Shown here one piece after another: positions 2,767-37,300 of a stretch of 64,000 nt of DNA; the stretch's first letter is position 1, and every line of letters starts with the position of its first letter. The stretch comes from Thermodesulforhabdaceae bacterium. GTDB lineage: Bacteria > Desulfobacterota > Syntrophobacteria > Syntrophobacterales > Thermodesulforhabdaceae. Where the stretch lies: assembly GCA_037482015.1 (NCBI GenBank), contig JBBFKT010000006.1, positions 62,001 through 126,000 on the forward strand, in the 5' to 3' direction. The position numbers were made by a program, and so were the translations under genes. The notes beneath the pieces were generated by a model. The model saw only the letters and a program-made list of their open reading frames with translations. It did no database searches and was not told the origin of the DNA.

Positions 2767-3516
2767 ATGGCAGAAAGATTGATTCCAAGGGGTAGATATG
2801 CTTTCTTAAACTTCATAACAGATTATTTTTTATCACTTATAAGTTTGTCCTGCCGCTATTCTCTGGATGGTATATACACCACCACAAAAATGTTTTTGGA
2901 AAAGAGGCATGGGATATTAGCTTTCTGGCACAGGGACCTTGTAGGAATGCTTTCTTTCTTTTTCAGACTGCCCTCTTTATCGAAAATTAAAGTATTTGAT
3001 GCTAACGACAAAATGATCCTACCAGCATTTTTAAATATTCCCTTTCCCGATGTATCTGCTGTTATGGTTAGTGCAAGCCGGGATGGGGAGATCGTGAATC
3101 ACTTACTGAAACAGTCTGGCTTTAGCACAATAAGAGGTTCTTCAGGGACCTATGGCTTAAGAGCAGCTTTTGGAGTTTTACAATATTTCAAGACTAGAGC
3201 TGGATTCCCTGCCTGTGTAATTATGATTGCGGATGGAAGTCGCGGCCCCGCTTGCGAAGTGCAGAGAGGAATTCCTTTTCTCGCTCGTCTTACCAAATCT
3301 GTCATTATACCCTGCGCCAGCGCTTCTTTTCCTTCTTTTTCCGTTCCTTCTTGGGATAGAATGATTGTCCCGATTCCTTTTTCTCGGATTGGTATTGTTT
3401 TTGGAAATCCTATCGAACCAGGCGGGGAGAGTGATGATGTGTTTGCATGCCAGGTTAAACACGCCATTGACGTTTGTTATGAAAAAGCTTTGAGAGTGGT
3501 TAGAGGTAGTTCTTGA
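2767..3516 (+). CDS. DUF374 lysophospholipid acyltransferase-like protein
   Basis: A 249-aa protein of the DUF374 group in the LPLAT superfamily, which includes lipid A and phospholipid acyltransferases. Recognisable blocks are AFWHRDLVGML (the H-x-x-x-D-like site), VSASRDGEIVNHLLKQSGF with RGSSGTYGLRA, and ADGSRGPACEVQRGIPFLA, the usual DUF374 'DGPRGP' region. It is likely a peripheral inner-membrane enzyme transferring acyl groups to a lipid acceptor; the acceptor is unknown. It starts 3 bp after the TauE/SafE gene and ends in a 176-bp gap before thiolase, in which I see no further gene. Confidence 0.8.
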   Translation: MAERLIPRGRYAFLNFITDYFLSLISLSCRYSLDGIYTTTKMFLEKRHGILAFWHRDLVGMLSFFFRLPSLSKIKVFDANDKMILPAFLNIPFPDVSAVMVSASRDGEIVNHLLKQSGFSTIRGSSGTYGLRAAFGVLQYFKTRAGFPACVIMIADGSRGPACEVQRGIPFLARLTKSVIIPCASASFPSFSVPSWDRMIVPIPFSRIGIVFGNPIEPGGESDDVFACQVKHAIDVCYEKALRVVRGSS

Positions 3517-3692
3517 TTTTGAAAGTTGGCTTTGGTTGACATTTCTAAACAAGGTTTGATAAGGTTTTCGCGAACATTCATGATCTTCATAAGGATCTTT
3601 TGGTTGTGGTTTTAGTGGGGGCACAGCATCATAATATTTGTGGCTCTGGTACGATTTGAATTTATACAAAACAATTTTTAGGAGGGGAATGT

Positions 3693-13091: not shown

Positions 13092-14267
13092 TTATTTTGC
13101 AATTGCCCAGTTGCCCTTAACAACCTGAACTATTATAAGATCCTTCTTCCCAAGGCCGTTGTGATCTGTCTGTGAGAAATTAAAAACTCCTAATTGCCCG
13201 ATAAAATTTTGCCTTTTTTCAATGTAGTCTCTTATTTTCGCTCTATCGGGTCCTACATTAGCCAGTGCATCAATGGCGAGCATAAGTGCATCCCAGGCAT
13301 GTCCACCGAAAGACGACACTGCCTCGTTGAACTTGCTTTCGTATTCTTTTGTGTAAGCCATAATGACCTGCTTTTGAGGATGATCGTCAGGAAGGATAGG
13401 TCCTATGACTACAGGAGGAAGTGGCACATAAAGCCCCTCTGCATCCTCCCCAAGCATTTCCAGATTTTTCTTATTTCCAAAGCCGTGGCTTTGGAAAAAG
13501 ATCGTATTGGTCATGCCAAGTTGACGCCAGGTTTTAGTGGCCAAAATCTGAGTGGGACCGATGGACCAGTTGATAACGGCATCTGGTTTGGCTCCCTTAA
13601 TTTTGGTAAACTGAGCTGTTAGATCAGTATCCTTGGGTCCGTATCGTTCATCGGCAACAATTTCTATGCCGTAATTCGGAGCATATTTAAGAAGCTCTTC
13701 TCTTCCACTTGCTCCATAACTTGTTGAGTCCGTGAGAATCGCTACCTTTTTAACGCCTTTTTCCTTCATGAATTCGTAGATTTTTTCTGCTACATGACTG
13801 TCGGATGGTGCCACTTTGAAAATCCATTTTCTTTCTTCAGGTGGCGTAACTATTTTATAGCTTGAAGCACAAGAGATAAGCGGCACCTGCTCTTTTTCCG
13901 CAACGGGGGCAACCGCCAGACTTTCTCCGCTTCTTGTAGGACCAATGATAACTGAAACTTCATCTTTGGAGATGAGCCGCTTTGCTGCCAGGATGGCTTT
14001 TGTAGAATCACTTTCATCGTCGTATATGATAAGTTCCAGCTTATGACCCTTTATGCCTCCCTGAGCATTGATATTGTCGCGGATCATCTCAGCGGTCTTC
14101 TTTTCTGGTTCTCCAAGGAAAGAAGCTACTCCAGTTACGGAAAATATAGCTCCAACCTTGTAAGGTTCATTACCGCTGCTACTGAAAGAACTTTTTGTCA
14201 CTCCCATCAAGGCAACCAAAAACGCCACCATTACAACGATTGTCCCAACCCACAACTTTCCTTTCAT
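13092..14267 (-). CDS. Liv-type ABC transporter substrate-binding protein (copy 2)
   Basis: A 391-aa periplasmic binding protein, paralogue of the next gene downstream. A signal peptide covers residues 1 to about 29 (GTIVVMVAFLVALMGV core). It shares with copy 1 the blocks VTGVASFLGEPEKKTAEMI, IIGPTRSGESLAVAPVAE and ISCASSYKIVTP. Both probably feed the single LivHMGF transporter, with different affinity or ligand; this is inferred. Only 30 bp separate its start from the nicotinate phosphoribosyltransferase stop, so its promoter lies inside that gene or it is read from the upstream operon. Confidence 0.9.
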   Translation of the reverse strand: MKGKLWVGTIVVMVAFLVALMGVTKSSFSSSGNEPYKVGAIFSVTGVASFLGEPEKKTAEMIRDNINAQGGIKGHKLELIIYDDESDSTKAILAAKRLISKDEVSVIIGPTRSGESLAVAPVAEKEQVPLISCASSYKIVTPPEERKWIFKVAPSDSHVAEKIYEFMKEKGVKKVAILTDSTSYGASGREELLKYAPNYGIEIVADERYGPKDTDLTAQFTKIKGAKPDAVINWSIGPTQILATKTWRQLGMTNTIFFQSHGFGNKKNLEMLGEDAEGLYVPLPPVVIGPILPDDHPQKQVIMAYTKEYESKFNEAVSSFGGHAWDALMLAIDALANVGPDRAKIRDYIEKRQNFIGQLGVFNFSQTDHNGLGKKDLIIVQVVKGNWAIAK

Positions 14268-22291: not shown

Positions 22292-22727
22292 AGAGGAGAG
22301 CAGGTCGCACGGTCGCTCCGCGAAAACATTGTAGTATTTTTTGCTACAATTGCTTATCGCGGGGAGGAAAGTCCGGGCTCCACAGGGCAAGGTGCTGGGT
22401 AACGCCCAGTCTCGGTGACGGGAGGAAAGTGCCACAGAAAACAGACCGCCCCTCCGCTGTTGTTCTGGTTTGCCAGAACGGCAGAAGGACGGTGGTAAGG
22501 GTGAAACGGTGAGGTAAGAGCTCACCAGACCCGGTGGTGACATCGGGTGCTAGGCAAACCCCACCTGGAGCAAGACCAAATAGGGGAGCGATTGAGGGTG
22601 GCCCGCCCGAAGCTCCCGGGTAGGTCGCTAGATCCCGTCGGTAACGACAGGGACCAGAGAAATGACCGTGCTGTCGGCTGATGAAAAGCCGGCAGACAGA
22701 ACCCGGCTTATAGACCAGCTCTCCTCC
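22292..22727 (+). ncRNA. rnpB: RNase P RNA, bacterial class A
   Basis: This is the catalytic RNA that matures tRNA 5' ends. The universal core is present: GAGGAAAGTCCGGGCTCC near 22364, ACAGGGCAAGGTGCTGGGTAA after it, and the 3' part with AGAGAAATGACCG and ACAGAACCCGGCTTATAG. The ends pair as helix P1 (GAGGAGAGC at 22293 with GCTCTCCTC near 22718-22726). The P3 arm carries an A+T-rich stem-loop, ATTGTAG with CTACAAT (22328-22350), in an otherwise G+C-rich molecule. The ispD gene starts 31 bp after the RNA ends, so they may share a transcript. Confidence 0.95.
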
Positions 22728-26216: not shown

Positions 26217-26696
26217 ATGACAAATGTTTCTGATGAAATGGTTTATAACACCTTGGGAGTAAGGCTCCCTAGATCATACCTTGAATTTCTCAGCGTCCAT
26301 TTTAAAGATCTAGATGATGATCCAGCAAATCATTGTTGCTGGAAGTCTGGATTTGGAAATTTCCCTTTTGTTCTTGGAACAACTCAAGCTTTTAGGAATC
26401 AGTTTCAAAACTTTCCCAAAGACTTTGTAATAATTGGCTATATCGGGACCAAGAAGATTTTGATAGATCATCAAGAAACAGAAATTGACATTTTTGTAGC
26501 GCTTAACGTAGCAACATCGGAAGTATTCTATGTTGATACGCTTGGCAAAATAGAAAAAGTGGCCGATTCTTTTGATTCCTGGGTTGGTGGATTTATTTCG
26601 TGGATTAGCGATAGACCTAAAACTTCGGGTAAATTCAGCTTATCAAGGTTTGTGGAGATAATTAAAGGAAAGAGAGTTAAAAATGATGGACGTTAA
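26217..26696 (+). CDS. SMI1/KNR4 (SUKH)-like protein
   Basis: A 159-aa protein that probably belongs to the SUKH superfamily. The N-terminal segment LGVRLPRSYLEFLSVH has the L-P-x-x-Y-x-x-F-L pattern of SUKH domains, and a central beta-rich part (FVIIGYIGTKKILID) is followed by a negatively charged strand and FDSWVGGFISWI. SUKH proteins often act as immunity proteins against polymorphic toxins, but no toxin gene is nearby. Here it sits inside a metabolic operon and overlaps the KorA start by 14 bp. I recognise the family only by pattern; treat function as unknown. Confidence 0.55.
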   Translation: MTNVSDEMVYNTLGVRLPRSYLEFLSVHFKDLDDDPANHCCWKSGFGNFPFVLGTTQAFRNQFQNFPKDFVIIGYIGTKKILIDHQETEIDIFVALNVATSEVFYVDTLGKIEKVADSFDSWVGGFISWISDRPKTSGKFSLSRFVEIIKGKRVKNDGR

Positions 26697-28386
26697 TGTT
26701 GTTATTGCTGGAGCTGCAGGAGAAGGCATCCAGACTGTGGGATCTATTTTTTCGGTGGCGGCAGCTAAGTGCGGACTTGCTGTTTTTTCCTGGCAAGAAT
26801 ACGAATCACGCATAAGAGGCGGACTTAATAGTTACTCTATTAGGATTTCTACTTCATTGAAAAATGCTCCACGGCGTGATGCCGATGTATTACTTCCGCT
26901 CAGGAAAGAGGCACGAAAAAAATATCGCTCCTGGCTCAATCCCAATGGGTTGCTTATAGCTGATGAACAGGACAATACGGACGGTGCGACGGAAATATTC
27001 GTTCCTTTCAATAAAATTGCTCGAGAAAAATGGCAAAGCCCAATTTATGCCAACACTATTGCCGTGGGAGCTCTGTGGTCGGTCATTGGAGGCGATTTTG
27101 AAGCGCTGCAAGTGGCGGTTGAGGATGAATTCCAGGGCAAAGCAGAAACAGTGATTAAAAACAACGTGGAAGCAGCTCGAGATGGCTACCTTTTTGCGGA
27201 AAAATCCTGTCAGGGAATATGTCCCTGGAAGTTGGAAAAACGCCCTGATCGCTTTTATTTGATAGCAGGAAGCCCTGCTATTGCTCTTGGATCTGTCAAA
27301 GCAGGATGTCGCTTTATGGCAGCCTATCCCATGACTCCCGCCACCGGTATTATTACTTTCCTTACTCAGCACAGAAAGGAATGCAAAGTTTTTACCGAGC
27401 AGGCAGAGGACGAAATTGCCGCCATAAATATGGCTATAGGCGCCCAGTTTGCCGGGGTTCGAGCTATGACGGCAACCTCTGGAGGCGGATTTTCTCTGAT
27501 GGTCGAAGCTTTGAGCCTTGCAGGCATGGTGGAAGTGCCGGTTGTTGTTGTGCTTGCACAAAGACCGGGACCAGCAACAGGACTTCCGACCCGCACAGCT
27601 CAGGGAGATCTTTTATTTGCTATCCACTCAGGACACGGAGAATTTCCTAAAGTTGTTCTGGCTCCGTCTGATCCCTATGATGCCTTCCACAAAATGGTTC
27701 GAGCTTTCAATTTAGCCGACAAGTATCAAATACCCATCATTGTTATGACCGACCAGTTTCTGGCGGATTCTCAGTTTTCTATACCAGACTTTGATGTGGA
27801 ACTGGCAAAGGTTGAGACTTTTATTGCTTCACCTTCAGATTTTTCAACTTATAAACGATATTCCATTACCGCTTCTGGAATATCTCCCAGACTTTACCCA
27901 GGGCAAAGCAAATATCTTGTTACCGCCGACAGCGATGAACATGACGAGGACGGACATATTACAGAAGACCTTGATGGCGTTGCTGTGCCAATGATGGAAA
28001 AGCGCCTTAGAAAGCTTCAATCTCTTCGAAGGGAAATACGCCCTCCCGAAAGATTTTTTATGGAAGACGACGTGGAAGAAGTTTTTGTAGGATGGGGAAG
28101 CACAAGACAGGCTATATTTGAAGCGGTGGAAATACTGCGAGAAGAAGGAAAGCGAATTGGTGCTTTGCATTTTACAGAATTGTGGCCCCTTCCAGAATTA
28201 TCCTCCAAGGAGGAATTTTTCCCGCCCAAAGCAAGCATTACCATTATAGAACAGAATGCAACCGGGCAGTTTGCCAGCCTTCTTAGAAGAGAGCTTGTAA
28301 TTCGAGATGCTAAAAGTATGCTTTTTTACAGTGGCTTGCCGGTTACGGCTCAAGACATAAGGAGACGTTTTTATGGTCGAGATTAG
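26683..28386 (+). CDS. korA: 2-oxoacid:ferredoxin oxidoreductase, fused gamma-alpha subunit (KorA type)
   Basis: A 567-aa fusion. Residues 1 to about 185 are the gamma subunit, with GAAGEGIQTVGSIFSVAAA and the motif YESRIRGGLNSYSIRI. From about residue 190 comes the alpha (pyrimidine-binding) domain: CRFMAAYPMTPATGIITFL, the catalytic-loop TATSGGGFSLMVEALSLAG and VVVVLAQRPGPATGLPTRT. This order is typical of 2-oxoglutarate:ferredoxin oxidoreductase, oxidising 2-oxoglutarate to succinyl-CoA or the reverse. Other 2-oxoacids (indolepyruvate, isovalerate types) cannot be ruled out from sequence alone. It forms a complex with KorB, which overlaps its 3' end by 14 bp. Confidence 0.9.
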   Translation: MMDVNVVIAGAAGEGIQTVGSIFSVAAAKCGLAVFSWQEYESRIRGGLNSYSIRISTSLKNAPRRDADVLLPLRKEARKKYRSWLNPNGLLIADEQDNTDGATEIFVPFNKIAREKWQSPIYANTIAVGALWSVIGGDFEALQVAVEDEFQGKAETVIKNNVEAARDGYLFAEKSCQGICPWKLEKRPDRFYLIAGSPAIALGSVKAGCRFMAAYPMTPATGIITFLTQHRKECKVFTEQAEDEIAAINMAIGAQFAGVRAMTATSGGGFSLMVEALSLAGMVEVPVVVVLAQRPGPATGLPTRTAQGDLLFAIHSGHGEFPKVVLAPSDPYDAFHKMVRAFNLADKYQIPIIVMTDQFLADSQFSIPDFDVELAKVETFIASPSDFSTYKRYSITASGISPRLYPGQSKYLVTADSDEHDEDGHITEDLDGVAVPMMEKRLRKLQSLRREIRPPERFFMEDDVEEVFVGWGSTRQAIFEAVEILREEGKRIGALHFTELWPLPELSSKEEFFPPKASITIIEQNATGQFASLLRRELVIRDAKSMLFYSGLPVTAQDIRRRFYGRD

Positions 28387-29233
28387 CGATTTTTATTCCG
28401 AAACACCTGTTCAGTGGTGCCCCGGGTGTCCTAACCATGCAATTTTGACCACTCTTAAAGAGGCTCTGGTAGAACTTGGGAAACATCCCCATGAAATATG
28501 TCTTGTTTCCGGCATAGGGCAGGCGGCAAAGCTTCCTCATTACATGCCCTGCAATTTTTTCAACGGTTTGCATGGAAGAGCCCTTCCAGTAGCTACTGCA
28601 ATAGCTGTAGCTCAACCCAATCTTACTGTTATTGTTACAACCGGGGAAGGCGATTGTTACGGCGAGGGAGGAAATCACTTTATTCACACCTTAAGACGAA
28701 ACCCAAACATTACGCTTTTTGTCCATAACAATTCGATTTATGCTCTTACCAAAGGACAGGCTTCCCCAACTACGCCTCCGGGGGAAAGGCGAAGTCTTAA
28801 CCCTGATGGAGTAACCCAGCCGCCGCTTAATTCTCTGGGAATTGCCATACTTCATAGGGCAGCCTTTGTGGCTCGAGCTTTTGCGCTCGATCGAGCTCAG
28901 TTGAAGTCCATCATGATGGAAGCAATTCAGTGTAGAGGATTTTCCTACGTAGATATTATTCAGCCCTGCATCACCTGGGATCCCAGACCCCTGGACTGGT
29001 TCAGGAAGAACGTAAAACCTCTGGATTCGTCTCATGACCCAGCTGATCTAAAAAAGGCTCTTGAGCTTGCTCTCCTGCCAGCTCCGCCCATTTTCACGGG
29101 GGTTTTCTTTAAAACCACCGATCGCCCTGTCTTTGGTGATGATTTTCTGATGGAGATGGGTGTTTCTTCTCTTGTAGAACCAGTTTTTCCTTCTGACAAG
29201 GATGTTCTGAAAATATTGGAACAATTTAGGTAA
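28373..29233 (+). CDS. korB: 2-oxoacid:ferredoxin oxidoreductase, beta subunit (KorB type)
   Basis: A 286-aa thiamine-diphosphate subunit. QWCPGCPNHAILT carries the first two cysteines of the [4Fe-4S] site, and NGLHGRALPVATAIAVA the ThDP contact region. The ThDP/Mg motif is GEGDCYGEGGNHFIH followed by the NNSIYALTKGQASPTT block. The later Cys of IIQPCITW matches the remaining cluster ligand. Its ATG overlaps korA by 14 bp with GGAG upstream. With ferredoxin as partner it would connect the TCA cycle to low-potential electron carriers; neither a ferredoxin nor a separate delta subunit is adjacent. Confidence 0.92.
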   Translation: MVEISDFYSETPVQWCPGCPNHAILTTLKEALVELGKHPHEICLVSGIGQAAKLPHYMPCNFFNGLHGRALPVATAIAVAQPNLTVIVTTGEGDCYGEGGNHFIHTLRRNPNITLFVHNNSIYALTKGQASPTTPPGERRSLNPDGVTQPPLNSLGIAILHRAAFVARAFALDRAQLKSIMMEAIQCRGFSYVDIIQPCITWDPRPLDWFRKNVKPLDSSHDPADLKKALELALLPAPPIFTGVFFKTTDRPVFGDDFLMEMGVSSLVEPVFPSDKDVLKILEQFR

Positions 29234-29260: not shown

Positions 29261-31222
29261 ATGGCAGTTGATAAGGGAATAAAAATTTTACTTGTTGAGG
29301 ATTCGAAGATAACTCGCCGGATGGAGTGTAAGGTATTAAACGATCTTGGGTTTAACAACATCATAGAAGCCGACGATGGTGATCATGCCATATCTCTTCT
29401 GGCTAAGCACCCCGATGTGGATGTTATTATTAGTGACTGGAATATGCCCAAAATGGGCGGCATTGAACTTTTAAAATGGGTTCGACAGCAAGAGAAATAC
29501 CGAGAGCTGCCTTTTATTCTGGCTACGGGAAGAGCACAAAAAAAGGAGGTGGTGGAAGCCTCCGAGGCTGGGGCAAGTAATATTATTTCCAAGCCCTTTG
29601 CTCCACCGGAACTTTTGAGGGTTATTGAACAGACTTTTTCCGGGAGGACTCTACAGACTCTTTCCCAGGAAATTCCAGAAAGAAAACCCGTGCTAGACGC
29701 CAGTGGAAAACCGATTCTGAATATTGCTCACATTCAGATTACCGACCATCTTACTCTTGGGGTTGCAAAGCATTTGATAGACACAGGTAAAGTTGCTCCG
29801 AAACATTTTGCTTCTCTTCAGACTATTTGTATGACGAGCTGGAATCCTGTCCGGGAAGCCTTGGAACAGGGCACGGTGGATGGAGCTCTGGTTCTTGCGC
29901 CCATTGCTATGGATCTCTTCGCATATAACGTTCCAGTAAAGGTTGTGTTGCTTGCTCACAAAAATGGTAGTATTTGCGTTCGCAAAAAGGAGCCCCTGAA
30001 GTCACTGGTGGAATTTTTCAAAAACAAGACTTTTTGCATTCCCCACGAGCTGTCCATTCATCATATTATTTCGCACATGTTTATGAATGAATTGGGACTT
30101 AAAGCTGGAATTGCTGGAAGCCGGGAAGGAGATTTTTTCTATGAAGTGGTTCCGCCTGTAAAAATGCCCGAATTTCTTAAAATAAATCCCGAAGCCAGTG
30201 GTTTCCTCGTGGCTGAGCCCATTGGGACAAAAGCCATAGCTGAAGGCGTTGCGGAGCAACTATTCCTGTCTGCGGAGGTATGGCAGAATCATCCCTGTTG
30301 CGTTGTGGCTTTCCGGTCTGAAATCATCGATAGACATGGGGAAGCCGTGGAAGAATTTGTCAGATTGATGGTTGAAGCGGGCGATTTTATAACTAAAAAG
30401 CCTGAAAAGGCGGCTGAAATTGGAGTAACCTTCCTGGATCCGCAAAAAACGCTGGGGCTTAAAGTGCCCATCTTGAAAAATGTTCTCACAGAAACTCAGG
30501 GAATAAAAGCTGACGACCTCAGACCAGATCTTGATGCGCTTGGCAAAATGGTTTCTTACATGAAGGAGAGCATGGATATAGACCTTGCTATTGATATACC
30601 CTCTTTTGTTGACATGAGATTTTCCGACAGTGCATACAGACATGCTAGTGGTTATGTTCCAAGACCGTCACGACTCTTGAGCATTAAAGATCTTATTGCC
30701 AGGGTATCACAGGATGTTCAGGAAGCTCGCGTTTCTGCAAAGAGTTTTCTTGGGCAGGAAGGGAAATATCTTATTTTTCATCTTAACAATCAACAATACG
30801 GGATTGATGTGCTGCACGTTAAGGAAATTGTTGGAATAATGCCAATTCGTGAAATTCCGCAAGCACCTTCATTTGTAAAAGGTGTTATCAATTTACGAGG
30901 TAAGGTAATACCGGTTATTGATCTAAGACTTAAACTTAATATGCCGGGAGCGGATTACAATGAGAGAACATGCATTGTGATTTTGGAAATTCCTCTCGAG
31001 CGAGGCGTTTTTCATGTGGGAGTTATAGTCGATACCGTTTCTCATGTGGAGACCATTAAAGCTCGAGATGTGGAACCACCTCCCAGGTTTGGTTCTGGTG
31101 TAAGTCTTCCCTTTGTTAGAGCCATGGCTAAGTCTGACGGACATGTTAAGATATTGCTGGACGCTATCCATCTATTTGAGAAAGCCGAGTTAGAAAGAAT
31201 TTCGGCAGCTCAAGCAGCATAG
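29261..31222 (+). CDS. Three-domain signalling protein: receiver, NMT1/NrtA-type binding protein, CheW
   Basis: A 653-aa protein without signal peptide. Residues 7-125 are a complete response-regulator receiver: acid pair Glu13-Asp14, phosphoacceptor Asp59 (ISDWNMPKMGG), Thr89 and Lys111 (SKPFAPPEL). Residues 152 to about 455 are an ABC-type solute-binding domain of the nitrate/taurine/THI5 class, with ITDHLTLGVAKHLIDTG and the segment EQGTVDGALVLAPIAM. Residues about 500-645 are a CheW domain (GIDVLHVKEIVGIMPIREIP, VINLRGKVIPVIDLR). The predicted location is the cytoplasm, so the binding domain would sense an intracellular ligand and signal to a CheA complex. No other chemotaxis gene is in the window; it starts 27 bp after korB. 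I do not know an established name for this arrangement. Confidence 0.88.
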   Translation: MAVDKGIKILLVEDSKITRRMECKVLNDLGFNNIIEADDGDHAISLLAKHPDVDVIISDWNMPKMGGIELLKWVRQQEKYRELPFILATGRAQKKEVVEASEAGASNIISKPFAPPELLRVIEQTFSGRTLQTLSQEIPERKPVLDASGKPILNIAHIQITDHLTLGVAKHLIDTGKVAPKHFASLQTICMTSWNPVREALEQGTVDGALVLAPIAMDLFAYNVPVKVVLLAHKNGSICVRKKEPLKSLVEFFKNKTFCIPHELSIHHIISHMFMNELGLKAGIAGSREGDFFYEVVPPVKMPEFLKINPEASGFLVAEPIGTKAIAEGVAEQLFLSAEVWQNHPCCVVAFRSEIIDRHGEAVEEFVRLMVEAGDFITKKPEKAAEIGVTFLDPQKTLGLKVPILKNVLTETQGIKADDLRPDLDALGKMVSYMKESMDIDLAIDIPSFVDMRFSDSAYRHASGYVPRPSRLLSIKDLIARVSQDVQEARVSAKSFLGQEGKYLIFHLNNQQYGIDVLHVKEIVGIMPIREIPQAPSFVKGVINLRGKVIPVIDLRLKLNMPGADYNERTCIVILEIPLERGVFHVGVIVDTVSHVETIKARDVEPPPRFGSGVSLPFVRAMAKSDGHVKILLDAIHLFEKAELERISAAQAA

Positions 31223-31291: not shown

Positions 31292-32701
31292 GTGAAAAAG
31301 GGAGAGGAAATTGTTCTCAGAATTGATAAGCTTGCTTACGGTGGAGCCGGAATAGGACGAGCGAATGGAACCGTTGTTTTTGTTGAAAGAGCCTTTCCCG
31401 GAGCACTGGTTAAGGCAATAGTCCTTCGAAAGAAAAAAGATCATTTTTTTGCCAGGGTTCTGGAAGTGTTAGAACCTTCGCCGTGGGAACGTGATCCTTT
31501 TTGCATGCACGAAAGTTACTGTGGAGGATGTCTATGGCAAAGGCTGGATTATTCTTCTCAGATTGAGTGGAAAGCTCGTCAAGTGGAAGAATCTCTCAGC
31601 CATATTGCTGGTCTGGAATCCGTGCCGCTTCTTCCTATAGAGCCTTCGCCCGTTACCCGGTATTATCGCAACAAAATGGAATTTGCCTTTTCTGCAAGAC
31701 GATGGCTTAGACCTGATGAAATTCAAAACTACAAAAATCAAGAACTAGAGCGAGGTTGTGGGCTTGGACTTCACGTTTACGGAGCCTTTGATCGAGTTTT
31801 CGACGTTGAAGAATGTTCTCTGGAGTCACCCGAAGCTGTTGATATTCTCAAAGCGGTGAGATTTTTTTGCAGGGAAAGTGGCCTTCCCGCTTACGGTATT
31901 TCTGGTCACACCGGGTTCTGGCGGTTTTTGGTGATAAAGGAAGCCAAAAATACAGGAGAACGCCTGGTTCACATCATAACAAGGTCCCATTCCGATTCCG
32001 AAAAAACCATTGATGGTCTTGCCAAGAAGCTTGAGGAACTCTGCCGATCAGGGGTAGCTATTACGACCTTGGTTCATTCCGTAAACGATCAGAAATCACA
32101 GGTTGCTGTTGGGGAAAATTCCAGAATCATTTGGGGATCGGGGAACATAACAGAGCGGTGTCTCCATATCAATCTGGCTATTTCTGCTCATTCTTTTTTC
32201 CAGACCAACCCGTCTGGAGCGGAAAAGCTTTATGGAAAGATTATCGAATGGGCTAATCTTTCTGGATCGGAAGAAGTGTGGGATCTTTACTGCGGGACGG
32301 GTTCTATTGGGCTTCTTCTAGCAAAACAAGCACGATTTGTTGTAGGCGTAGAACTTGTGGAAGATGCAGTAAGAGACGCTCAAAAGAACGCCTTTTCAAA
32401 TGGTATAGAAAACTGTGTTTTTTACGCAGGCGACATAAAAGATGTTATCAAGACTCTAGCACATCGTGCCCCTCACCTGGTTATCATAGATCCGCCTAGA
32501 GCCGGCATGCATCCAAAGGTTGTTAAGGCTCTTCTTGATCTTGCTCCACCCAGAATTATCGCTGTTTCCTGTAATCCTACGACGTTGGCTCGAGACGTTG
32601 GGTTGCTTGTGTCAAAATATCGCATAAGGGCAGTTCAGCCCTTTGATTTGTTCCCCCATACTCCCCACGTTGAATGCCTGGTGGATTTGGAACTGAACTA
32701 G
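31292..32701 (+). CDS. 23S rRNA (uracil-C5)-methyltransferase, RlmD/RumA family
   Basis: A 469-aa enzyme that methylates a uridine in 23S rRNA or tRNA with S-adenosylmethionine. Order of parts: TRAM domain (residues 1-60, LAYGGAGIGRANGTVVFVE), a [4Fe-4S] cysteine cluster (CMHESYCGGCLWQ, with a fourth Cys downstream), central domain, then a Rossmann fold with LYCGTGSIGLLLA, VELVEDAVRDAQKNA, DPPRAGMHPKVV and the catalytic cysteine in AVSCNPTTLARD. RlmC, RlmD and TrmA-like members cannot be told apart by eye. It starts with GTG after GAGG. A hairpin follows. Confidence 0.9.
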   Translation: MKKGEEIVLRIDKLAYGGAGIGRANGTVVFVERAFPGALVKAIVLRKKKDHFFARVLEVLEPSPWERDPFCMHESYCGGCLWQRLDYSSQIEWKARQVEESLSHIAGLESVPLLPIEPSPVTRYYRNKMEFAFSARRWLRPDEIQNYKNQELERGCGLGLHVYGAFDRVFDVEECSLESPEAVDILKAVRFFCRESGLPAYGISGHTGFWRFLVIKEAKNTGERLVHIITRSHSDSEKTIDGLAKKLEELCRSGVAITTLVHSVNDQKSQVAVGENSRIIWGSGNITERCLHINLAISAHSFFQTNPSGAEKLYGKIIEWANLSGSEEVWDLYCGTGSIGLLLAKQARFVVGVELVEDAVRDAQKNAFSNGIENCVFYAGDIKDVIKTLAHRAPHLVIIDPPRAGMHPKVVKALLDLAPPRIIAVSCNPTTLARDVGLLVSKYRIRAVQPFDLFPHTPHVECLVDLELN

Positions 32702-35715: not shown

Positions 35716-35750
35716 AGTGGACACAGCTAAAGTGTCCACTTTTAATTTTC
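35716..35750 (+). terminator. Terminator after ferritin-like gene
   Basis: Arms AGTGGACAC (35716-35724) and its complement (35732-35740), 7-nt loop, followed by TTTAATTTTC. It separates the ferritin-like gene from the glutaredoxin gene. Confidence 0.8.
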
Positions 35751-35767
35751 TAACAGGAGTAAAAAAT

Positions 35768-36022
35768 ATGGCTTCCCGTGTGAGAATATTCAGCACGCCA
35801 ACCTGCCCATATTGTAAGCAAGCTAAGGAATTTCTTACCACGAAAGGGATTTCTTTTGAAGATGTCGATGTTTCATCAAACCCCGAAGGACTTAAAGAAA
35901 TGAGAAGTATTTCCGGGGGCGCTCGCACTGTTCCCGTAATCGCCATAGATGACGTGGTGATTGTAGGATACGAAGAGACCGATATAGTTAAAACTCTCAA
36001 AGAAAAAGGGCTTCTTTCTTAA
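35768..36022 (+). CDS. Glutaredoxin-family protein
   Basis: An 84-aa glutaredoxin/NrdH-like protein. The active site is STPTCPYCKQAKEF (Cys13, Cys16), and the TVPVIAIDDVVIVGY segment holds the cis-proline and the glutathione-site-like glycine. The start at 35768 has AGGAG upstream; the longer frame from 35717 crosses the terminator. It lies directly before a glutaredoxin-reductase fusion, which may be its electron donor. Confidence 0.9.
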   Translation: MASRVRIFSTPTCPYCKQAKEFLTTKGISFEDVDVSSNPEGLKEMRSISGGARTVPVIAIDDVVIVGYEETDIVKTLKEKGLLS

Positions 36023-36079: not shown

Positions 36080-37300
36080 ATGACCGTTTCTCGGGTTACC
36101 GTTTATACAGTTTCAGGATGCCCTTTTTGCGATAGCGTTAAAAAACTATTAAAAGAAAAGGGAATAGAATTTCTTGAGATTGACGCTCCTCCCTATAGTG
36201 ATCAGTGGTTTGAAATGGTGAAAAAGACCGGAAGTGGAGCTCTTCCTCAGGTGCTTGTGGGAGACGAGACCGTAGGAGGTTATCTTGATGTGATTTTCTA
36301 CGAGGCTTCCGGACTTTTGTATCAAAAGCTGGGAATAGAATCTCCGGACGTGCGCAAAATAGAAACTCTATACGATGTGATAATTCTCGGAGCTGGTCCT
36401 GCCGGTTTGAGCGCTGCTATTTATGCGGCTCGCAAGGTATTAAAAACTCTTGTTATAAGCGGCAACATCGGTGGTCAGGTGACATGGACCTACGACATTG
36501 ATAACTATCTCGGATTTAGTCAGGTTAATGCGCAGGATCTTATCAAAAAGTTTCGAGAACATGTTGAAAAATACGGTGTAGAAACGGTTATAGGGCAGGA
36601 AGTTGTATCGGCCGACATTACGGGGCGAATTAAGCGAGTAACCACAAAAGATGGTAGATCTTTTTATGGCAAAACTCTAATTATCGCCACAGGAGGACAG
36701 CATAAGCGACTCAACATCCCTGGAGAGAAGGAATTTCTAGGGCGGGGAGTCTCTTACTGTTCAACCTGTGACGCTCCCCTTTTTGCTGATGCAACCGTTG
36801 CCGTCATTGGTGGAGGAAATTCTGCACTCGAAGCCGTAATAGACCTTATGCCTATAGCAAAGCACATCTACCTTGTTTCTTTGACAGAACTTACAGGAGA
36901 TCCTTTGCTTCAGGAAAGAGTTAAAAAATCCCCCATGGTGGAAATCTTTACTCGTCATAAACCTGTAGCTATTCTGGGAAAGCAGGAGGTTGAAGGGATC
37001 GAGATTTTGTCTTTAGAGGAAAACAAAACCAAGACTCTTAATGTAGAGGGGGTTTTCATAGAAGTCGGAATTATGCCCAATTCATCTCTTTTTGTTGATG
37101 TGCTGGCCACAAACGAGCGAGGCGAAATTATTGTGGATGAAATGTGCAGAACCGGTGTTGCTGGAGTATTTGCCTGTGGCGATGTGACAAGTGTTCCTTA
37201 CAAGCAGGTTGTGGTTGCGGCCGGGGAAGGCGCTAAGGCAGCCCTGTCGGCTTATAATTATCTGGTAAACCGAGCGGGTAAAACTCCCGGTTCTGGTTAA
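36080..37300 (+). CDS. Glutaredoxin fused to AhpF/thioredoxin-reductase-like flavoprotein
   Basis: A 406-aa fusion. Residues 1-88 are a glutaredoxin domain with VSGCPFCDSV (Cys14, Cys17). Residues 98-400 are a thioredoxin-reductase-like flavoprotein with FAD motif GAGPAG (104-109), redox-active Cys227 and Cys230 (YCSTCDAPLF) and NAD motif GGGNSA (244-249). The C-terminal half matches AhpF more than TrxB: the NADPH motif H-R-R-x-x-x-R is absent and VPYKQVVVAAGEGAKAALSA is AhpF-like, so NADH is the likelier donor. Unlike AhpF it has a single small redox fold instead of the tandem N-terminal domain. It follows glutaredoxin by 57 bp and a HEAT-like gene starts 2 bp after it. No ahpC is seen. Confidence 0.9.
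   Translation: MTVSRVTVYTVSGCPFCDSVKKLLKEKGIEFLEIDAPPYSDQWFEMVKKTGSGALPQVLVGDETVGGYLDVIFYEASGLLYQKLGIESPDVRKIETLYDVIILGAGPAGLSAAIYAARKVLKTLVISGNIGGQVTWTYDIDNYLGFSQVNAQDLIKKFREHVEKYGVETVIGQEVVSADITGRIKRVTTKDGRSFYGKTLIIATGGQHKRLNIPGEKEFLGRGVSYCSTCDAPLFADATVAVIGGGNSALEAVIDLMPIAKHIYLVSLTELTGDPLLQERVKKSPMVEIFTRHKPVAILGKQEVEGIEILSLEENKTKTLNVEGVFIEVGIMPNSSLFVDVLATNERGEIIVDEMCRTGVAGVFACGDVTSVPYKQVVVAAGEGAKAALSAYNYLVNRAGKTPGSG

Follow-up and report, generated by a model that had tools for sequence, protein, structure and literature searches.

On the forward strand of the window (the whole 64,000-nucleotide stretch of DNA analyzed, from a Thermodesulforhabdaceae bacterium), positions 29261..31222 hold a single gene for a 653-aa protein in which a CheY-like receiver, an NrtA-like binding domain and a CheW domain follow one another (hereafter, the fusion). 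The gene starts with an ATG, with GAGGG 8 nt upstream, and the opposite strand across 29261-31222 is full of stops. The receiver occupies residues 9-122 (29285..29626; Pfam PF00072 Response_reg, E 1.7e-24; CheY fold, Z ~23) and carries the phospho-acceptor D59, the acid pair E13/D14, T89 and K111. A first linker (residues 126-147, 29636..29701) joins it to a cytoplasmic NrtA/CmpA-type solute-binding domain at residues 148-460 (29702..30640), assigned by Pfam PF13379 (NMT1_2; residues 148-387, E 3.1e-27) and by structure comparison, and a second linker (residues 461-501, 30641..30763) leads to the CheW domain at residues 502-642 (30764..31186; Pfam PF01584, E 2.3e-34, and similarity to CheW structures). 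The CheW NLRG motif at 544-547 (N544, L545, R546, G547) is invariant in 13 orthologs. All three Pfam domain scores were far above the curated cut-offs, and Pfam found no further domain in the 653-aa protein. These results bear out a sequence-only reading of this DNA, which had described an intact receiver (acid pair, Asp59, Thr89, Lys111), an NMT1/NrtA-type binding domain at residues 152-455 and an intact C-terminal CheW domain. The same reading had seen no signal peptide, and the structural model agrees: the first receiver strand lies at residues 9-12 (DSSP), almost at the N-terminus, which runs straight into it and leaves no room for one. The export signal or lipoprotein anchor typical of the binding proteins of ABC importers is absent from the fusion, the N-terminus of which is the receiver domain.

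Upstream on the same strand lie genes for the gamma/alpha subunit (26683..28386) and the beta subunit (28373..29233) of a 2-oxoacid:ferredoxin oxidoreductase, the latter ending 27 nt before the fusion; downstream is a tRNA/rRNA (uracil-5-)-methyltransferase family gene (31292..32701, forward strand) that is probably unrelated to it. The gene order IspF-CysS-BFN-SMI1-Kor-Kor-fusion-methyltransferase is kept only within the genus, and because of this narrow synteny the oxidoreductase was rejected as a general functional clue. Neither an importer of the NMT1_2 family nor a chemotaxis gene adjoins the fusion in the window's own genome, where the sole other NMT1_2-scoring match proved to be a TRAP-TAXI receptor, and no riboswitch was found near the fusion gene in the window. 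Elsewhere in the window, a glutaredoxin-like domain stands at the N-terminus of a thioredoxin-reductase-like flavoprotein (36080-37300), next to a small glutaredoxin gene (35717-36022), and a class A bacterial RNase P RNA lies at 22297-22726 (318 bits).

To establish how far the arrangement extends, genomes (one per species) were scanned with a profile of the middle domain, giving 225 related stretches from which 79 distinct loci were kept. Receiver, binding domain and CheW stand in the same order in 76 of the 79 loci from other genomes, answering in the affirmative the question of a shared domain order that the sequence-only reading had raised; the other three (L054, L110 and L115) have receiver and binding domain only. 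Pfam recovered the receiver in 76, NMT1_2 in 76 and CheW in 73 of 76 family sequences. Full-length orthologs were present in 5/5 Thermodesulforhabdaceae genomes (63-82% identity to the window's protein) and in eight further genomes of the same order among those searched. Because every genome of its own family has a full-length ortholog and nearly all loci keep the domain order, the fusion is neither a chance product nor an assembly artefact. The binding-domain profile matched 17 of 297 sampled genomes of the window's phylum, nearly always within a frame of ~650-730 residues, and record titles of the loci name Thermodesulfobacteriota, Ignavibacteria/Melioribacter, KSB1, Latescibacterota, Thiotrichales, Chloroflexi and Magnetocorallium. 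Plasmid and phage collections gave either no full-length match or matches to importer-type binding proteins only. The fusion is thus a conserved family spanning several phyla, with a broad but patchy spread. Shorter relatives also occur: a receiver and binding domain without CheW were seen at L054, L080, L110 and L115 (at L054 in tandem with a full-length copy), and a free-standing protein related to the binding domain, with no visible signal peptide, follows a CheX gene at L108 (9985-10968), with a similar 328-aa frame beside the fusion in G090.

Within the family, all 76 aligned sequences have receiver residues D14, D59, T89 and K111, and 75 of them have Glu at position 13. Mean pairwise identity was 60% for the binding domain, 54% for the receiver and 48% for CheW (42, 17 and 8 invariant positions, respectively), making the binding domain, by sequence comparison, the most conserved part of the fusion. 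An AlphaFold2 model built from the alignment of the 76 family members had a mean pLDDT of 91.9 and a pTM of 0.84. Modeled residues 3-129 superposed on CheY at ~1 angstrom, and the C-terminal domain matched solved CheW structures. For residues 149-477 the nearest structure was NrtA (2g29; Z 36.9 over 313 residues, rmsd 2.2), followed by a zinc-bound binding protein of S. aureus (3un6; Z 36.3) and the cytosolic regulatory domain of CmpC (9uai and 9uak; Z ~35, with 9uai at Z 35.4); NrtC (8wm7_C; Z 33.6) and CmpA were also among the close matches, and sulfonate, taurine and Thi5 folds scored lower (Z 23-27). The middle domain is accordingly modeled as a two-lobe, type II solute-binding fold of the NrtA-like clamshell kind, as the sequence-only reading had predicted for this region. 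That it might be a Thi5-type enzyme instead of a reversible sensor, a reading invited by the fold in common with Thi5 and by a pocket rich in His and Cys, is scarcely credible: Thi5 falls in the third tier of matches (Z ~23 vs 37 for NrtA), no thiamine gene shows consistent linkage to the family, and no riboswitch was found near the seven loci scanned for one.

Candidate pocket residues fall in four motifs: HIQITDH at residues 157-163 (29729..29749), W194-N195 (29840..29845), PHELSIH at residues 261-267 (30041..30061) and HPCC at residues 344-347 (30290..30301), all on the forward strand. Invariant among these and elsewhere in the domain are H157-I-Q-I-T-D-H163, W194-N195, G236-S237, P261-H262, S265, H267, A318 and H344-P-C-C347, while H233 is kept in 75/76 sequences and E319 is nearly invariant. 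The family was collected with two short patterns, which biases motif conservation; nevertheless, all 39 sequences without the strict first pattern have HPCC, and all 6 without the second have HIQITDH. Nitrate in NrtA is held by W102, Q155, H196, G240 and K269 (PMC13204499), of which K269 and H196 balance its charge (PMC8786288). With NrtA numbered as the SEQRES number plus 29, sequence alignment places W102 at W194, G240 at A318 and K269 at C347; the less certain motif alignment places H196 at H267 and Q155 at S237. All five positions are invariant in the fusion family and two or more are chemically different, and since these changes include Lys269 to Cys, nitrate appears an unlikely ligand. 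An adaptor for taxis toward nitrate or nitrite (or bicarbonate) would fit the ranking of NrtA as nearest structure, ahead of CmpC, NrtC and CmpA, and the retention of NrtA W102 and, by motif, H196. Such a role is nevertheless very improbable, because the charge-balancing K269 (PMC8786288, PMC13204499) is Cys in 76/76 sequences, Q155 corresponds by motif placement to an invariant Ser, and the same Cys-Cys motif also occurs in importer-type relatives.

The Cys-Cys motif is common to the fusion, 3un6 and exported NMT1_2 binding proteins. Together with the invariant His/Cys set, the neighbors found in other genomes (cysteine desulfurase, rhodanese and DUF169) lead us to guess that the ligand may be a metal- or sulfur-linked compound, and since most loci lack importer linkage it could be a product of the cell's own metabolism. 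A DUF169 gene lies near the fusion in seven loci of different phyla, four of them with a cysteine desulfurase. In those four (L051, L052, L074 and L105, from unrelated phyla) the desulfurase, an aminotransferase class V gene, adjoins the DUF169 gene beside the fusion, and the L074 desulfurase shows weak DsrC-like similarity close to the N-terminus; a sulfur-relay link is possible. DUF169 has neither a known function nor a solved relative and was set aside as a clue to the ligand. Rhodanese adjoins in 13 loci, mostly of one closely related group, and may reflect plain synteny. Riboswitches offered no clue either, none being found near the seven loci scanned, importer-linked ones included.

The two linkers differ in behavior. 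That between receiver and binding domain (residues 126-150) is nearly constant across the family at 21-26 aa, and that to CheW (residues 461-497) varies from 26 to 63 aa; the short, constant first linker and the long, variable second one suggest that receiver and binding domain work as a coupled pair, tethered flexibly to CheW. A constant distance to the receiver would also suit a binding domain that works through protein contacts and binds no small ligand, for example restraining the receiver as NasS holds NasT, the fusion then being a CheV with an inserted regulatory spacer; NasS-NasT does offer a precedent for a cytosolic NrtA-like domain acting through a receiver-containing partner (PMC3795266). 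We regard this as unlikely, as a mere spacer would not need the positions of the NrtA ligands to be strictly invariant across phyla, and the NasS and CmpC domains still bind ligand.

Chemotaxis genes adjoin the fusion in nine of the 79 loci (~70 have no chemotaxis gene next door), only modestly above the expectation from gene density, and the argument from context therefore rests on tight multi-gene runs. These comprise CheA-CheR-fusion at L047, CheA-CheR-fusion-CheX at L059, CheR-fusion-CheX at L094, and a run of CheR, CheY and CheA before the fusion at L060. A chemoreceptor gene (MCP) lies directly upstream at L041, L042 and L058, CheD lies upstream at L076, and CheX directly downstream at L108. 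In a tree of CheW domains L047, L059 and L094 form one clade, which reduces the linkage to about six independent occurrences. The tree is compatible with a single origin of the fusion and also with several. One open reading frame at L060, considered as CheB, lacks the features of that protein and resembles a repeat protein instead. The CheX phosphatase gene at L108 (9518-9976) comes right after the fusion in Desulfatibacillum alkenivorans. Elsewhere the gene directly after the fusion encodes a hemerythrin-domain protein (L109, 6150-6554), and a small gene at L111 (3447-3854) resembles it in size and spacing. The sequence-only reading had proposed looking for a CheA or receptor close by; both occur close to the fusion in other genomes (CheA at L047 and L059; MCP at L041, L042 and L058) but neither is adjacent in the window's genome. 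Its suggestion of a soluble, ligand-gated chemosensory adaptor gains from the CheA-CheR, CheX and chemoreceptor surroundings, with ligand gating itself inferred from the domain. Gene context thus adds independent support for a chemosensory role of the fusion.

The window's genome is itself equipped to use the protein: it encodes two CheA, 14 MCPs and FliG, with CheR, CheD, CheY-like receivers and a CheA clustered on contig 5. The CheA of this main cluster is 53% identical to the one operonic with the fusion at L059. Separate CheW proteins are also present in the genome, to which the fusion, like CheV, would add a further adaptor.

A second recurring neighbor is an ABC importer. An ABC ATPase is the next gene after the fusion in six loci (L064, L072, L080, L096, L097 and L107), and in all of these except L080 the ATPase gene precedes those for an NMT1_2 binding protein bearing a Tat signal and for a permease, the binding proteins having the ITD and NHPCC motifs in common with the fusion. 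Two matches to the Acido-Lenti-1 RNA family (3482-3527 and 13929-13974) flank the importer-linked locus L072. These loci, with their related exported binding protein in five cases, and a fold close to the regulatory domains of NrtC and CmpC would accord with a fusion that acts on or signals to an ABC importer and not the motor, sensing the imported solute and gating its uptake as NrtC and CmpC do, with CheW as a generic docking module. We consider this quite improbable: the importer is absent from most loci, no second NMT1_2 protein is encoded in the window's genome, in other loci the fusion belongs to a CheA-CheR run, and CheW domains are reported to be exclusive to chemosensory systems (PMC10782961).

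Taken together, the domains and fold, their conservation, the chemotaxis and importer linkages and the precedents of CheWS, CheV, NasS and CmpC indicate that the fusion is probably a soluble protein of the cytoplasm, anchored in the chemosensory array, that serves as adaptor and sensor and is gated both by phosphorylation and by a ligand inside the cell. CheA and receptors are the docking partners of CheW. Through its CheW domain the fusion would dock into the lattice of receptors and CheA where CheW or CheV otherwise sits, and the middle domain would close on a small intracellular ligand, changing the presentation of CheW to CheA or the receptors. CheA would phosphorylate the receiver at D59, and the receiver would serve, much as in CheV, either as a feedback element or as a second input, so that output would be set by both the open or closed state of the binding domain and receiver phosphorylation. 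We infer both ligand binding and array gating by the binding domain. Where an importer is encoded downstream, the fusion would probably signal how much of the imported solute is present in the cytosol. The wider claim, to which we give slightly less than an even chance, is that the family represents an undescribed, phylum-spanning class of chemosensory adaptors, in which a cytosolic binding protein derived from importers senses a solute within the cell, perhaps one linked to metal or sulfur, and combines this signal with phosphorylation by CheA in the array, so that internal nutrient status guides the cells with no dedicated chemoreceptor.

Importers normally use binding domains of this kind outside the inner membrane, and the usual explanation for chemotaxis to importer substrates is a periplasmic binding protein that touches a membrane receptor. 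The fusion puts an importer-kind domain on the cytosolic side, joined to an array adaptor, and some relatives share their locus with an importer that uses a related exported binding protein. If the adaptor reading is true, it would couple solute level inside the cell directly to control of the motor and provide a second CheW "hub" taking ligand input after CheWS, mechanistically different from it and with a phosphorylation site. Anaerobes carrying the fusion may steer by an internally sensed molecule. As the binding domain is soluble and conserved, identification of the ligand is tractable.

Among known systems, the closest to the fusion by sequence is 3un6 (E 7.4e-20), with which it has IPHxxSxH and CC motifs in common; Tat-exported NMT1_2 binding proteins have these motifs and NHPCC in common with it, but they and 3un6 are exported parts of ABC importers. 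The regulatory domain of CmpC is a cytosolic NrtA-like domain acting as an intracellular solute sensor (PMC13249358). NrtC and CmpC (8wm7, 9uai and 9uak; Z 33.6-35.4) resemble the fusion in having such a domain fused to a signaling output, but there it is C-terminal to an ABC ATPase, is not joined to receiver and CheW, and has ~18% identity to that of the fusion. NasT contains a receiver-like part. NasS, a cytosolic NrtA-like sensor that senses an ion and releases its partner (PMC3795266), is likewise kept in the cytoplasm and works through that receiver-like partner, but it stands alone as a protein, its target being an RNA-binding antiterminator, and it keeps all the nitrate ligands, which the fusion does not. 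An ANTAR partner such as NasT was not found: the fusion has no ANTAR domain, and its flanking genes encode POR, a TPP-enzyme, an SMI1-like protein, a bifunctional nuclease and a methyltransferase.

No description of the combination of receiver, binding domain and CheW was met with in the literature searched, nor was a characterized CheV-type subfamily of this kind, but the combination may be listed, unstudied, among the 30 undescribed CheW architectures counted by the survey in PMC10653840. The earlier statement that no described system with the arrangement is known agrees with this search as to the combination, but is too strong in spirit given the precedents of CheWS (PMC10653840) and NasS (PMC3795266). 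Phosphorylation of CheV controls receptor binding in P. aeruginosa (PMC12691637). CheV and the fusion both unite CheW and a receiver with intact phosphorylation residues in one soluble protein, but in CheV, as had been remarked from sequence, CheW comes first and the receiver second, and there is no ligand-binding domain; the fusion reverses this order and adds a third domain. CheWS of Treponema denticola, a characterized CheW-fused cytosolic SAM sensor, acts as a chemoattractant sensor inside the array (PMC10653840). Like CheWS, the fusion joins a cytosolic ligand-binding domain to CheW, with binding by that domain predicted, and CheWS, being array-anchored and bypassing chemoreceptors as input, would by analogy be its closest functional precedent. 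In CheWS, however, a CheR-like SAM-binding sensor lies C-terminal to CheW and there is no receiver, whereas the fusion has an NrtA-like clamshell sensor (NMT1_2) N-terminal to CheW plus a phosphorylatable receiver. The fusion would work like CheWS and CheV and is a member of neither, since it differs from CheV in domain order and extra domain and from CheWS in sensor type.
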